From the NCBI GenBank assembly GCA_005883575.1, contig VBFH01000025.1, forward strand, positions 62,001 through 126,000: a stretch of DNA of 64,000 nucleotides, in the 5' to 3' direction. A program made the position numbers and the translations under genes. Shown in pieces: positions 50,453-55,745 of this stretch. Every line of letters starts with the position of its first letter. Position 1 is the stretch's first letter. The stretch is from Chloroflexota bacterium. GTDB taxonomy: Bacteria; Chloroflexota; Dormibacteria; Dormibacterales; Dormibacteraceae. Under the pieces are notes generated by a model. The model worked only from the letters and a program-made list of their open reading frames with translations, had not been told where the DNA came from and did no database searches.

Positions 50453-51844
50453 TCAGCGCGCCAGGGACAGGACGTCACCGAGGACGAATCCGTGTTCGGT
50501 GATCTCGTACCGGTGGACGATCGGACGGTGCTGCATCGCGCGCGTCTTGAGGATCGTGAGGGCTCGCACCAGCTCGGGCCCGTCCTGGACGTACTGGAGA
50601 AGGATCACGTTGTCGGCGAGGTGTGAGATCCCCTGGTCCGAGATTCGATGCAGCTCGAAGAGCTCAGGGATCTCGACGATGAACATCAAGCTGATCCCGG
50701 CGCGCGTGAAGCGCTGCGTCACTGAAAAAACCCACTCCCGGAATCGAACCGGATCGCCCGCCCCGATCTCCAGGTCGGGGAGGCTGTCGATGACGATCCG
50801 CTTCGCGCCTGTCCTCTCGACGAGCTCCAGAAGCTCATACACCCATTCGTCGATGTTCATGCCGACCACGCCGCGAGACAGGAGGTGGACGTCCGGATTG
50901 TCGACCGACCAGCCAAAGCTGCTCACGATCCGTTCCAGCTGAGTCTCGTTCTCGTGAAAGGTCGCGAGGATACCGGGTTCTCCGGCTTGGGCGCCGTGAT
51001 AAATGAAGTGAAGACCCATCAGCGTCTTGCCGATTCCCGATGGGCCGGCTATCAAAGTCGTCGCCCCCGCCCAGAACCCACCTTCGCCCAGAAGTTCGTC
51101 CAGAGCCGCGATTCCCGTCGCGGTGTGCTCGCGCCTGAGCTGATAACGCGAATCGACATGGTCCTCCGCCAGGCGGGGGAAAACTTCGAGGCCCCCATCT
51201 GAGATGCGGTACGTGTGCTCGCCCGATCGGTATCCGCTGCCGCGCAGCTTCAAAACCTGGATTACGCGGACCTCGCGCTCGGCCATCTGCTTGATATCGA
51301 GGTCGACGATCGCGTCGGCAATCGCAAACTCCGCTTCCACCTGCGCGTGCTCTCGCGTGTACGGCGCGTTCCAGATAGACGTTGCCGCGGCGGCCGTGAG
51401 GCGCCGAACAAGTCCGTACAGAAACTGCCGGAAAGCGCCGATGTCTCCAGCCATCGCGTGGAAGGCCCGGAAGCTGTCGAGGACGACGATCCCGGGCCGC
51501 GCCTGCCGCAGGTGACCGTCGATCGCATGCAGGACCTCATCAAGCCCGCTCTCACCTAGCTGTTGGCCGATGTCCTCGTAGACGACGCGGCCGTCGCGCA
51601 GCGCCGTGCGGTCGAAGAACGTCAGCGATTCCCCGTAGCGAAGAATCTTGTCGAGAGGTTCCGACAGTGTCGAGAGGTACAGGGCGGGTTTTTCGACCGT
51701 GGCGTTCCGAAAAGCCACCTGCTGGCTCAGGATCGTCTTGCCGCTGCCGGGGACACCGACGATCAGGTTGATCGCGTTCTTCAGCAAGCCGCCGCTGAGG
51801 ATCTCGTCGAGTCTTTTGACTCCGGTCGGAATACGCTCGTTCAA
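50453..51844 (-). CDS. Double-domain KaiC-like ATPase
   Basis: Two RecA-like KaiC domains fill 463 residues. Domain 1 (1-230) starts ERIPTGVKRLDEILSGGLLK and has Walker A GVPGSGKT and Walker B IVVLDSF. Domain 2 (245-463) starts TATGIAALDELLGEGGFWAG and has Walker A GPSGIGKT and Walker B RIVIDSLPD. Catalytic Glu pairs are not obvious beside domain 1 Walker A (LYLSTLSEPLDK carries one). It is shorter than cyanobacterial KaiC (about 519 aa) and lacks the C-terminal tail with the autophosphorylation ST pair. KaiA/KaiB are absent. It shares 4 bases with the MerR-receiver gene and so is translationally coupled to it. Confidence 0.88.
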   Translation of the reverse strand: MNERIPTGVKRLDEILSGGLLKNAINLIVGVPGSGKTILSQQVAFRNATVEKPALYLSTLSEPLDKILRYGESLTFFDRTALRDGRVVYEDIGQQLGESGLDEVLHAIDGHLRQARPGIVVLDSFRAFHAMAGDIGAFRQFLYGLVRRLTAAAATSIWNAPYTREHAQVEAEFAIADAIVDLDIKQMAEREVRVIQVLKLRGSGYRSGEHTYRISDGGLEVFPRLAEDHVDSRYQLRREHTATGIAALDELLGEGGFWAGATTLIAGPSGIGKTLMGLHFIYHGAQAGEPGILATFHENETQLERIVSSFGWSVDNPDVHLLSRGVVGMNIDEWVYELLELVERTGAKRIVIDSLPDLEIGAGDPVRFREWVFSVTQRFTRAGISLMFIVEIPELFELHRISDQGISHLADNVILLQYVQDGPELVRALTILKTRAMQHRPIVHRYEITEHGFVLGDVLSLAR

Positions 51845-52515
51845 CGCTGGAGGCGCGGCTCGCGCGAACGGTCCACCAGCGCGCTGGTGCCCAGCAGGTC
51901 GCGCACGGTGGAGACGAGGGCCAGCGGCTCGAGCGGTTTGCGCATGAACGCAGCCGCGCCCGAGCGAATCGCCTCGTCTGCGCTGTCGATCGCGGACACC
52001 GCGACGACGTGCGCCGTCTGCCTCGCGGCGAACTCATTGAGAAGACGAAAGCCCGCGCCGCCGGAGATCAAGAGATCGATGAGGACGATCTGGGGCGATC
52101 GCTCCTCGAAGTGCAGCCGGGCTTGGGTGGCATCGAGGGCGACCACGACGTCGCAGCCCTCTGTGCGCAGGAAATATTCGGCCAGGTCCGCCGCGTAGCT
52201 GTCCCGCTCAGCTATCAAGACCAGCGGTCTGACCTCGTGGGTGGATCCGGAGCCGACCGGCAGATGACCCGCGCCAAGGTCCTCGGACAGAAGCCGGTGC
52301 GCGTCCGCGGCGCTCATGCCGGACTCGATCTGAGACTTGATGAAGCGCAACTTCTCGACCTGCCCACGCGAGTAGAGGCGGTGCGAGCCCTCGCTGCGTC
52401 TCGGGCTGATGAGCGAGTAGCGATCCTCCCAGGCACGTAGAGTCGAGGCTGGGATGTCGAGCATCCGCGCCACCGCACCGATCGAGTAGATGGGCTGATC
52501 CTGCTCGCCGGCCAT
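51841..52515 (-). CDS. MerR-type DNA-binding domain fused to a receiver domain
   Basis: From ATG 52515 (224 aa). Residues 8-75 are a MerR winged helix: IYSIGAVARMLDIPASTLRA, then WEDRYSLISPRRSEGSHRLY and QVEKLRFIKSQIESGMSAAD. Residues 95-215 are a receiver: VLIAERDSYAADLAEYFL, the Asp in IVLIDLLISGGAGF (acceptor position), VSAID and MRKPLE. The MerR part resembles the CarH/LitR/MlrA group, with a receiver replacing the cobalamin domain. The gene is the first of a two-gene operon with the KaiC-like ATPase; its own upstream region contains inverted repeats. Confidence 0.88.
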   Translation of the reverse strand: MAGEQDQPIYSIGAVARMLDIPASTLRAWEDRYSLISPRRSEGSHRLYSRGQVEKLRFIKSQIESGMSAADAHRLLSEDLGAGHLPVGSGSTHEVRPLVLIAERDSYAADLAEYFLRTEGCDVVVALDATQARLHFEERSPQIVLIDLLISGGAGFRLLNEFAARQTAHVVAVSAIDSADEAIRSGAAAFMRKPLEPLALVSTVRDLLGTSALVDRSREPRLQR

Positions 52516-52538
52516 GCCTGAAACCTCACAATATAGCT

Positions 52539-52598
52539 TATGCAGAGTTGTTGCATAGATTTTCGGATCGTGATAGTTTTTTGAACAGCAACAACTGC
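52539..52598. promoter_or_regulatory. Inverted repeats in the divergent MerR-receiver/receiver promoter region
   Basis: TATGCA (52539-52544) and TGCATA (52552-52557) form an exact palindrome around a 7-base spacer. GCAGAGTTGTTGC (52542-52554) is matched in inverted order by GCAACAACTGC (52588-52598). On the minus strand a TATATT -10-like element lies just downstream of the palindrome. The A/T-rich tract gatagttttttgaac between them is unusual for this window. Autoregulation by the MerR-type protein is the likely use. Confidence 0.55.
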
Positions 52599-52734
52599 GG
52601 AGGCATTGCGAAATGTAACGCAGGTGTCGGCTTCGGAGACGAATGGAGGGTTCAGCCGGGGCCTGGCGGCGATGGGGCGCAAGAGCGGGCGGCGAGAGCG
52701 GGCGCCGCGCGCCGCCGGGGCCGCCGGCTGAAAC

Positions 52735-53169
52735 ATGATGCTGGGGGCGATTCGACCTGTGAAGGAAGGGGAGCCGGCCGGGGGGAGATCGGTGATCCTG
52801 GTCGACGACGATGTCACGACGGCGGAGATGTACCGTGTCGGGCTCGAGGCGTTCGGCTTCAGCGTGACCGTTGCCCATGACGCGGAGGAGATGTTCCGCA
52901 ACATCGACGGTCAGGTGCCCGACATCCTCGTCCTCGATTGGCACCTGCCTGGCATGCATGGTGATGAGATCCTGCATCACATCCGCCTGGACGAACGGAC
53001 CAGGGCGCTCCCTGTTTTCATGCTGAGCAACTACCCCGGGGGGAAGGACGGCGAGATCGACCGCGTGTTCCTGGCAGGGGCGCTGGCCTGGCTCGAGAAG
53101 GTCAAGACGCCGCCGGCGTTGCTCGCCGAGAAGCTCACCGAAGCCCTGAGACCCGCGCCAGGCTCATAA
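52735..53169 (+). CDS. Response-regulator receiver (144 aa)
   Basis: A lone receiver with VILVDDDVTTAEMY, the acceptor Asp in ILVLDWHLPGMHGDE, MLSNYP and, at the usual Lys position, WLEKVK. The Trp in LDWHLPG is seen in receivers that work with circadian-type or photosensory systems. It has a 20-residue N-terminal extension. Divergent from the MerR-receiver/KaiC operon across the repeats at 52539-52598, so the two are probably co-regulated. Confidence 0.85.
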   Translation: MMLGAIRPVKEGEPAGGRSVILVDDDVTTAEMYRVGLEAFGFSVTVAHDAEEMFRNIDGQVPDILVLDWHLPGMHGDEILHHIRLDERTRALPVFMLSNYPGGKDGEIDRVFLAGALAWLEKVKTPPALLAEKLTEALRPAPGS

Positions 53170-53226: not shown

Positions 53227-53469
53227 CTACGAGAAACGGCGGATGAACATGAACATCGCCGGCACCCACTGCTCGTCGACGACCGGCCGGCGGCGGACGC
53301 GGCGGCGCAGGAACCCCCACACGGCAAGCTCGCCAGACCGCGTCGGGTTGGCCTTGTCCTCGAGCGCCAGCTCCCGCGACAGTCCGTCGTCGCCGTCGAG
53401 CGGCGCGAAGATCGAGTACATGCTTTTCCGCTCGAGGCTGCGCAGGTCCCTCTCTTCGAGACGGCTCAT
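53227..53469 (-). CDS. Basic small protein of unknown function (80 aa)
   Basis: From ATG 53469 (MSRLEERDLRSLERKSMYSI). The second half is strongly basic (WGFLRRRVRRRPVVDEQWVP) and ends in a hydrophobic AMFMFIRRFS. No family is recognised. A longer frame to 53736 overlaps the ECF sigma gene and is not protein-like. The gene is divergent from the sigma gene, with 82 bases between starts. Confidence 0.45.
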   Translation of the reverse strand: MSRLEERDLRSLERKSMYSIFAPLDGDDGLSRELALEDKANPTRSGELAVWGFLRRRVRRRPVVDEQWVPAMFMFIRRFS

Positions 53470-53551
53470 CGGATTGATTGTGACACCACGGTCGCGGGGT
53501 GACACCCTCGTCTGAGTTCCGCCCGTAGTAGAGGTATGGGATGGCATGTAG

Positions 53552-54097
53552 GTGACGAGCGGCGATCGAGAGCAGGCTCTCATCGCTCGCGCCACGGCGG
53601 GTGATCGATCGGCGTACGAGCGCCTCCTCGAACCCACCGTCCGCCCGGCCACGAGGCTTGCGTTTGCCATGCTGCACGATCGGTCGGAGGCCGAGGACGT
53701 GTTCCAGGAGTCGGCCCTCAAGGCCTGGCGACACATGCGAAGCCTTCGCCCAGGCAGTCCCTTTCAACCGTGGTTCATGGGCATCGTCGCCAACCAGTGC
53801 CGTGAGGTCCGCAGGGGTAGGTGGTGGCGATTGATCCGAGTCCCGGATGTGGCCGCGCCTGAGCCGGCCGACGAGACGGCGGCCTGGCTGGAGGGCGAGG
53901 AGCTGCTTCGCGCAGTGGGGCTGCTTCCGCACGACCAGCGCGTGGCCGTGATTCTCCATTTCCACCTCGACATGCCGCTGAGCGATGTCGCGCTTGCCCT
54001 GGGCATTACGCAGGCCGGCGTGAAGACGCGGATCAACCGCACGCTCAAACGCCTGCGCCCGGCGATCGGAGCTGCTGAGGTCAAGATCGATGGCTGA
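53552..54097 (+). CDS. ECF-family RNA polymerase sigma factor
   Basis: At 181 residues it has region 2 (ARATAGDRSAYERLLEPTVR, LAFAMLHDRSEAEDVFQESA, LKAWRHMRSLRPGSPFQPWF) and region 4 (LPHDQRVAVILHFHLDMPLS followed by DVALALGITQAGVKTRINRT). It directs RNA polymerase to alternative promoters. The last 8 bases overlap the start of the next gene, which encodes a membrane protein with an intracellular N-terminus, the arrangement of ECF sigma/anti-sigma pairs. The GTG start lacks a clear ribosome site. Confidence 0.9.
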   Translation: MTSGDREQALIARATAGDRSAYERLLEPTVRPATRLAFAMLHDRSEAEDVFQESALKAWRHMRSLRPGSPFQPWFMGIVANQCREVRRGRWWRLIRVPDVAAPEPADETAAWLEGEELLRAVGLLPHDQRVAVILHFHLDMPLSDVALALGITQAGVKTRINRTLKRLRPAIGAAEVKIDG

Positions 54098-55745
54098 AGA
54101 GACGCTTCGTCGCAACCTTTATGAGGCCTTCGACCCGGGACCCGGCTTTCCGAATCCCTTGCTTCTTTCGCGAACCATGGCCGCCCTCGAGGCGGCGGAG
54201 CCTGCGGCGGATCGCCGACCGTCGCGAGGAAGGAGCGGCTCGCCGCGACGCGGCATCGTGAGCCTGAGCCCGGCGGACACGACCGGCCGTCTGGTCGCGG
54301 CCGCACTCGTCCTCCTCCTGCTGCTCGCTTCCGTAGGCGCGGTCCTGCTCATCCAGCACTACCTCCTGTCGCCGACGCCTGCTCGGTGGAGCGGCTGCGG
54401 AGGAAGCTTCCAATGCGCGTCGATAACGGTGCCGCTGGACTACTCCAACCGCAGCCCCGGCTCGATCGAGATCGCGACCATCCGCAAGCCCGCGACCGAC
54501 TCATCGCACCGGATCGGATCGCTGATCCTGGACCCGGGTGGGCCGGGAATATCCGGGATCGACTATCTGCGTCAGGACTCCGTCTCCTACGAGAGCCTGA
54601 ACAAGCGATTCGACCTGGTCGGCTTCGACCAGCGCGGGGTCGGGCGTAGCGCATCGGTGCGATGCCTGACCAACGCGCAGATCGATGCGCTCATCCAGGT
54701 CGACACGGTGCTCGACGACCCGCGAGAGAAGCAGATCTACATCGAGGCGAGCACGAGCATGGCCCAGGCGTGCGAGCAGACGAGCGCCAGGCTTCTTCCA
54801 TTCGTGGACACCGCCAGCGCTGCGCGCGACCTGGACGCGATCCGCGCCGCACTCGGTGACTCGAAGCTCACCTACCTGGGGTTCGGTTACGGATCGTTTC
54901 TCGGCGAGACCTACGCGCACCTCTTCCCCACTCACGTCCGCGCGCTCGTTTTCGACGGAGTCGCGGACCCGGCGCTCGGCGTTGGCGATGAGCTGCTCGC
55001 GCGCGCCATGGGCTTTGAGGCCAACCTGCAGGCATTCCTCGCCGACTGCCGCAGCATCGCGGTCTGTGCGTTCGGCCAGGCGGGTGACCCGGGACCCAGG
55101 TTGGCAGGGTTGATCCAGAAGCTCGACCAGAGCCCGTTGCCCGTCGGGCCGAGAAGCCTCGGCGGGCGGCTCGCCATCGCCGGCCTGATCGTCGGGCTCG
55201 ATCCCCGCCGCTGGCGCGACCTGGACGGAGCGCTGAACGACGCCGCCAACGGCGACGGCCAAGCGCTGCTCGCGCTGGCGGACGTTGCCTACGGCCGACG
55301 CGCAGATGGCTCGTATCTATATCTGCCGGAAGCTCAAACGGCGATCACCTGCGTGGACCAGGCGGTGCCGTCCGACCTGGCCTTCTACGACCAGCTCGGC
55401 CCGGCGCTGGTCAAGGCCTCTCCGATCTTTGGGCCGGCGTTTCAGTACGCCCCACTCGATTGCTCGCTGTGGCCGGTCAAGTCGAAGCGCACGGCTGGCG
55501 CTCTGACGGCGACGGGCGCGCCTCCCATCCTGCTATTGGGCGGCACGCAAGACCCGTCCTGGCCGTACGCGTGGGCGCAAGCGGTGAACTCGCAGCTTGC
55601 AAGGTCCGTACTCCTCACGCGCAATGGTTATGGGTTCCTGTCGTATTTCCGCAGCCTGTGCGTAAGCCTGGCGGTGAACGCTTACCTCACCCAGCTCGCG
55701 CTTCCGCCTGCTGGCACCGTCTGTGCCTCCGACTACCCGGCGTAG
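54090..55745 (+). CDS. Membrane-anchored alpha/beta-hydrolase-like protein lacking the nucleophile; candidate anti-sigma factor
   Basis: The first 66 residues are intracellular (RRNLYEAFDPGPGFPNPLLL; anti-sigma-like position), and residues 67-92 are a membrane helix. The outer part (98-551) follows the tripeptidyl aminopeptidase/proline iminopeptidase fold: VPLDYSN, LDPGGPGISG, FDLVGFDQRGVGRS and LLLGGTQDPSWPYAWA with the acid Asp. But the nucleophile elbow, normally GxSYGxxxG, reads GFGYGSFLG (Gly266), and the final His region reads TRNGYGFLSYF. So it is probably a binding domain rather than an enzyme. It overlaps the sigma gene by 8 bases. Confidence 0.8.
   Translation: MAEETLRRNLYEAFDPGPGFPNPLLLSRTMAALEAAEPAADRRPSRGRSGSPRRGIVSLSPADTTGRLVAAALVLLLLLASVGAVLLIQHYLLSPTPARWSGCGGSFQCASITVPLDYSNRSPGSIEIATIRKPATDSSHRIGSLILDPGGPGISGIDYLRQDSVSYESLNKRFDLVGFDQRGVGRSASVRCLTNAQIDALIQVDTVLDDPREKQIYIEASTSMAQACEQTSARLLPFVDTASAARDLDAIRAALGDSKLTYLGFGYGSFLGETYAHLFPTHVRALVFDGVADPALGVGDELLARAMGFEANLQAFLADCRSIAVCAFGQAGDPGPRLAGLIQKLDQSPLPVGPRSLGGRLAIAGLIVGLDPRRWRDLDGALNDAANGDGQALLALADVAYGRRADGSYLYLPEAQTAITCVDQAVPSDLAFYDQLGPALVKASPIFGPAFQYAPLDCSLWPVKSKRTAGALTATGAPPILLLGGTQDPSWPYAWAQAVNSQLARSVLLTRNGYGFLSYFRSLCVSLAVNAYLTQLALPPAGTVCASDYPA

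Follow-up and report, generated by a model that had tools for sequence, protein, structure and literature searches.

What role can a hydrolase play when its gene directly follows that of an ECF sigma factor and its catalytic residues are gone? This question is raised by a gene pair in the stretch of DNA analyzed here, 64,000 nucleotides from a soil bacterium of the Chloroflexota (contig VBFH01000025.1), which we refer to as the window. A sequence-only reading had placed a catalytically dead hydrolase in the anti-sigma position and had proposed that it would bind a peptide or ester ligand rather than cut it. Our analyses favor, with a probability of roughly 0.8, a self-activating ECF sigma factor paired with a membrane-anchored anti-sigma factor, in which the dead hydrolase would serve as a receptor only.

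Organization of the sigma factor locus

The sigma factor gene (53552-54097, + strand) has a GTG start and encodes 181 amino acids with sigma2 and sigma4 domains. The product scored above the Pfam cut-offs for Sigma70_r2 (45 bits) and Sigma70_r4_2 (39 bits) and above the cut-off for TIGR02937, and its length of about 180 residues with these two domains alone makes it a member of the ECF group. Orthologues with 69-81% identity are present in five other genomes. Neither an RsgI N-terminal domain nor a SigI-type sigma factor was matched at the locus by Pfam or NCBIfam, the sigma factor being of the ECF type. The second gene (54090-55745, + strand, ATG start, 551 amino acids) encodes a putative anti-sigma factor with an inactive Hip1/TAP-type alpha/beta hydrolase as its outer domain. 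Both reading frames overlap by 8 bases (ATGGCTGA, 54090-54097, + strand), an arrangement found in all six orthologous loci, through which the sigma factor and membrane protein genes are likely translationally coupled; the pair also appears to be co-transcribed. An adjacent gene, a single membrane helix, a positively charged inner flank and a cysteine-rich outer domain together give the second protein the layout of a membrane-anchored anti-sigma factor. Coordinates, Pfam matches and the AF2 model agree with the overlap, the intracellular N-terminus, the one helix and the outer alpha/beta hydrolase that the sequence-only reading had described, although the topology itself is a prediction.

Upstream of the sigma factor gene lies a divergent gene for 80 amino acids (53227-53469, - strand, MSRLEERDLRSLERKSMYSIFAPLDG...) without any Pfam match. 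Copies with 77-84% identity stand beside the sigma factor gene in the genomes G004, G005 and G014, three of the four genomes that carry the hydrolase fusion hold weaker paralogues at other sites, and the gene was not seen beside the sigma loci with a propeller protein described below. In addition, genes for a KaiC-type ATPase, a MerR-plus-receiver protein and a single receiver protein (50453-53169) adjoin the sigma operon and are kept beside the sigma factor gene in G005 and G014.

A conserved, probable promoter upstream of the sigma factor gene

A probable autoregulatory ECF promoter is located at 53500-53527 (+ strand), with a -35-like TGACACC (53500-53506), a 16-base gap and a -10-like CCGTA (53523-53527). 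The pattern TGACACCCT-N13-[CT]CCGTAG recurs with constant spacing upstream of the sigma factor gene in all six orthologous loci; two of them, from G026 and G033, cannot be aligned with the other loci elsewhere in their upstream DNA, yet the promoter spacing is identical. Exact TGACACC-N16-CCGTA was detected at the sigma factor gene in each of the six carriers, with one further exact site each in G026 and G033, and in one of 36 non-carrier genomes of the family. As the promoter precedes the sigma factor gene in every carrier and is rare elsewhere, it points to self-activation, and self-activation with a small regulon would be the simplest reading of this distribution. With one mismatch allowed, the match frequency in carriers was about the same as that in non-carriers and that of control patterns, and the promoter-pattern search revealed no regulon beyond the sigma operon itself. 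Two look-alike sites with a 17-base gap, in G004 and G014, were discarded, since they differ at every third base and thus resemble coding sequence. A second TGACACC (53481-53487) is found 19 bases upstream of the first; it is kept in G014 and degenerate in G004 and G005.

A Hip1-type outer domain without catalytic serine and histidine

Residues 98-546 of the membrane protein (54381-55727, + strand) form a predicted extracytoplasmic alpha/beta hydrolase domain with ten conserved cysteines. Pfam recognized Abhydrolase_1 (66 bits) and the TAP-like Abhydrolase_4 (75 bits), both above cut-off, and the nearest solved proteins are those of Mycobacterium tuberculosis Hip1/CaeA (E = 7e-64 over residues 104-545). 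An AF2 model built on 34 related sequences (mean pLDDT 86.7) was matched by Foldseek to Hip1 9md8 in the outer domain, with an E-value of 1.7e-36, a TM-score of 0.88 by target length and an rmsd of 2.4 Å. Hip1 is an active protease with the triad Ser228, Asp463 and His490, for which p-nitrophenyl butyrate and azocasein were used as substrates (PMC4022732).

While the fold and the conserved cysteines place the domain with the Hip1/TAP proteins, the Ser-Asp-His triad has become Gly266, Asp488 and Phe516. The nucleophile elbow reads G-F-G-Y-G-S, and the GGT codon of Gly266 (54885-54887, + strand) aligns with Hip1 Ser228; this assignment, as well as the missing final histidine, had been anticipated by the sequence-only reading, and we find Phe516 (55635-55637, + strand) at the position of Hip1 His490. 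Of the former triad only the acid is kept, as Asp488 (55551-55553, + strand), which corresponds to Hip1 Asp463.

We searched 61 genomes, including that of the window, and found hydrolase homologues in 28. Full-length fusions behind an orthologous sigma factor gene occur in four genomes of one genus (G000, i.e. the window, G014, G004 and G005); the G005 fusion is split over two contigs, and these four are the only sigma-linked dead copies known. All four carry the same Ser-to-Gly exchange and keep the aspartate, and the histidine is replaced by Phe, Thr, Val or Ala. By contrast, the nucleophile is Ser in 28/28 and the catalytic His is present in 29/29 free-standing homologues. The lipobox cysteine is found in all 21 free homologues that include this region and in none of the fusions, whereas the ten cysteines occupy identical positions in fusions and active relatives. 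Among the active domains, the four dead ones group as a single clade (100/100 support). Given the E-value of the Hip1 match and the same loss in three orthologues, the loss of serine and histidine is not a chance effect. Free active TAP homologues are present in all four fusion genomes as well; besides, nearby duplicates of free TAP-like hydrolases were noted in G018 and G008 (L047, L050).

Compared with the window, dN/dS of the dead domain is 0.22 (G005), 0.34 (G014) and 0.32 (G004). The free enzymes have values of 0.09-0.16 and the sigma factor has 0.18-0.26; the dead domain is therefore maintained, under somewhat relaxed constraint. That the second gene is a decaying hydrolase copy which came to stand beside the sigma factor by chance would be in line with the loss of the active-site residues and with a dN/dS roughly double the free-enzyme values. 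However, the frame is open in all four orthologues with dN/dS of 0.22-0.34 and intact cysteines, the 8-base overlap is constant and the N-terminus is common to the propeller versions, so that a pseudogene is rejected and we give this explanation hardly any weight. A catalytically dead hydrolase under purifying selection is thus indeed the outer domain of the protein in the anti-sigma position, as first proposed.

Alpha/beta hydrolase folds are able to host unusual chemistry, and with Asp488 retained, the outer domain might still be an enzyme that uses a different nucleophile or base. Ser269, a candidate for a replacement nucleophile, turned out to be the ordinary elbow +3 residue, a position held by Thr in two of the four fusions and almost throughout the active relatives. 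Furthermore, the fusions share no histidine near the site, the sole shared one (H140) preceding strand 143-148, and the only newly shared serines are S125 and S164. We therefore consider an alternative enzyme highly improbable, if slightly less so than a decaying copy, and favor a domain that serves as a receptor only.

Conservation of the former pocket and of other surfaces

The three full-length fusions were compared with 388 triplets of active relatives that diverge to the same degree; the resulting counts are not probabilities, because only three fusions enter and the triplets overlap. Identity among the fusions was 0.49 in the oxyanion loop (0.65-0.92 in the active triplets) and 0.60 in the nucleophile elbow (0.77-0.96), in both cases below all 388 triplets, and in the Asp/Thr loop it was below or equal to that of all but a few; taken together, these three segments are less conserved in the fusions than in 385-388 of the 388 triplets. 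G014 has a broken oxyanion GGPG motif, and G004 has lost the motif by deletion. In addition, the threonine that follows the catalytic aspartate (Hip1 Thr466 by position) is exchanged for a bulky aromatic residue in all four fusions (W, W, Y and W), Trp491 (55560-55562, + strand) in the window. The most conserved outer stretch among the fusions is a helix formed by residues 241-255 (54810-54854, + strand), a candidate contact surface; over residues 237-256 the fusions reach an identity of 0.90, above all 388 free triplets (0.55-0.83).

It is the walls of the former active site that have lost conservation, and the proposed binding of a peptide or ester in the dead pocket is not borne out by these comparisons. 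If the pocket continued to bind substrates of the ancestral kind, either a peptide N-terminus or an ester, and to report their presence, this would be in line with the retained fold, Asp488 and ten cysteines, and would have a precedent in RsgI6, whose GH10 domain is hardly active yet still binds its polysaccharide (PMC4711584). Against it stand the low identities of the oxyanion loop and elbow, the broken or deleted GGPG motif and the aromatic residues at position 491, as well as the observation that no target promoter, even with one mismatch, lies at the free TAP-type paralogues of contigs C62 and C52. We consider such pocket binding unlikely, though it deserves more weight than an alternative enzyme. 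Given pocket walls that lack conservation, a ligand in the pocket is no likelier than a contact at some other site of the domain, which may involve a protein, and the signal is probably something other than a classical active-site ligand.

Exchange of outer domains on one sigma lineage

In two other genera, represented by G033 and G026, sigma orthologues with 70-72% identity are followed by an overlapping gene whose product begins with MA[ED]ETLR.NL...FDPGP..P.PLLLSRTMA.L and continues with the same membrane helix. Their outer parts are a PD40 (WD40-like) or a Ycf48/BNR propeller, with PD40 and PSII_BNR above the Pfam cut-offs. Between hydrolase and propeller versions, pairwise similarity amounts to 0.67-0.74 in the sigma factor and 0.32-0.44 in the N-terminus but drops to 0.02-0.03 in the outer part. 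Since orthologous sigma factor, N-terminus, helix and promoter are kept with an unrelated beta-propeller, the outer domain has been swapped just outside the membrane.

The conserved core of the putative cytoplasmic anti-sigma domain, residues 1-34 (MAEETLRRNLYEAFDPGPGFPNPLLLSRTMAALE, 54090-54191, + strand), is kept in all six sigma-orthologue loci whatever the outer domain, and AF2 predicts two helices there with low confidence (2-13 and 23-36). No anti-sigma domain was recognized in residues 1-60 by Pfam or NCBIfam. Class I anti-sigma domains have four helices and often a zinc motif, whereas the inner segment here is shorter, with two low-confidence helices in 63 residues, and the absence of cysteine from residues 1-63 leaves no zinc motif. 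A search of 400 genomes of the phylum returned matches to the N-terminal segment from the host family only. Being kept with the sigma factor across exchanged outer domains, the N-terminus gains support as the anti-sigma part, and there is indirect support that it, rather than the outer domain, travels with the sigma lineage. The single transmembrane helix (residues 64-92 in the AF2 model; 54279-54365, + strand) fits the same pattern: the membrane block of the fusions has a similarity of 0.40 to that of the propeller relatives, compared with 0.19 for shuffles and 0.18 for the signal peptides of free enzymes. Judged from these similarities, the helix is part of the anti-sigma module and not of the hydrolase. 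This puts the junction close to residues 93-98, immediately beyond the membrane on the outer side; at this point an already existing anti-sigma module gained a mature hydrolase domain.

The next sigma factor out, from G022, has 52% identity and is accompanied by a Vgb-lyase-type propeller; this protein in the anti-sigma position (L104, 744-2039) belongs to the virginiamycin B lyase family (Vgb_lyase 206 bits) and stands beside the nearest paralogous sigma factor. About 35 more distant ECF genes in the host family share the layout of a short N-terminus, a helix at about 45-65 and an outer domain. Among the 40 pairs scanned, outer domains include 14 of AMIN-like and 10 of BNR/Ycf48 type besides the Vgb type, hydrolase domains being confined to the present sigma orthologue group, and sigma similarity correlates more closely with similarity in the N-terminus (Spearman 0.50) than with similarity in the outer part (0.34). 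This family-wide expansion of ECF pairs (L104-L143) carries no anti-sigma domain known to Pfam. The sigma tree of the six loci supports the hydrolase group with 26/32 and leaves the order of exchange unsettled, so that "propeller first" has its sole basis in the related pairs, all of which lack a hydrolase. Tentatively, and with a good deal less confidence than for the pair as such, we speculate that one sigma lineage has exchanged its receptor, which is a beta-propeller of one of two kinds or a dead Hip1-type hydrolase, and that the latter senses via a surface other than the pocket, for which helix 241-255 is a candidate, perhaps through a protein partner such as an active lipoprotein paralogue.

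Proposed mechanism and comparison with known systems

We propose that residues 1-60 of the second protein hold the sigma factor inside the cell, that residues 64-92 span the membrane and that residues 98-546 lie outside. This outer part would derive from a lipoprotein hydrolase of the Hip1/TAP type and, with nucleophile and catalytic base lost, would act only as a receptor. When the signal meets the outer domain, the anti-sigma part may be cleaved or rearranged, two modes of release that have been reviewed (PMC8103513), and the freed sigma factor would then transcribe its own operon from TGACACC-N16-CCGTA. The receptor would be an exchangeable module, because two other genera run the same sigma factor, anti-sigma segment, helix and promoter with a beta-propeller. 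M50 site-2-type proteases are encoded in the host genome, but likewise in all 14 control genomes, and therefore say little about regulated intramembrane proteolysis.

A close parallel is Tt-RpoE1/Tt-TolB of Thermoanaerobacter tengcongensis, where an ECF sigma factor is likewise followed immediately by a single-pass protein with a large outer domain and a very short N-terminus, residues 1-39 of which bind Tt-RpoE1 by two-hybrid (PMC3397946). That pair is autoregulated from tGTTAC-N16-CGTC, a promoter with the same 16-base gap and CGTC as its -10 element. Unlike here, the outer part of Tt-TolB is of the TolB type rather than a hydrolase, and no sensor exchange on one sigma lineage was described.

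The membrane protein could instead be a positive co-regulator or a simple tether of the sigma factor, or its dead domain could report on active lipoprotein paralogues by pairing with them. Free active TAP homologues accompany all four fusions, and the top-conserved outer surface is a helix distant in sequence from the catalytic residues, as would suit a protein-protein contact. On the other hand, layout and N-terminal length match those of Tt-TolB, a demonstrated inhibitor of its sigma factor (PMC3397946), the free homologues are mostly found in genomes without this sigma factor, and the propeller carriers need no hydrolase sensor. We regard these roles as improbable, more so than ligand binding in the old pocket, and retain the anti-sigma factor with a receptor-only hydrolase as the preferred reading.

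SigI6/RsgI6 of Clostridium thermocellum (PMC4711584) also combines an anti-sigma factor with a degenerate enzyme as outer sensor, the GH10 domain of very low activity in RsgI6. There, however, the sigma factor is of the SigI type, the N-terminus is that of RsgI and the carbohydrate enzyme keeps substrate binding, whereas the present pair has an ECF sigma factor and an alpha/beta hydrolase with both catalytic residues gone and relaxed pocket walls. With Hip1/CaeA (Rv2224c) and Streptomyces tripeptidyl peptidases the outer domain shares the fold, the disulfide cysteines and the catalytic Asp (5ugq, 7sfm, 9md8), but the counterparts of Ser228 and His490 in the active protease Hip1 (PMC4022732) are replaced here and the domain is fused to an anti-sigma module. 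RsiV/SigV of Bacillus subtilis (PMC4183432, PMC5014341) likewise uses the outer domain of an anti-sigma factor as receptor for an outside molecule, although that domain is unrelated, binds lysozyme, triggers regulated proteolysis and is not such an enzyme relic. In the literature searched, we found no paper in which an anti-sigma factor carries an alpha/beta hydrolase or a tripeptidyl aminopeptidase domain. Sensors derived from degenerate enzymes are already known from RsgI6; what is new here is an ECF anti-sigma factor with an inactive Hip1-type hydrolase as receptor, in a lineage with exchanged receptors.

Anti-sigma factors with a known input come from few families. The present locus offers a clear example of an enzyme converted into a receptor, in which the lipobox and both catalytic residues were lost within one clade while active sisters persist in the same genomes. 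Moreover, with the same sigma factor, inner segment and promoter joined to three outer domains, these natural chimeras allow a direct test of whether the outer domain by itself defines the signal, and of which surface passes it through the membrane.
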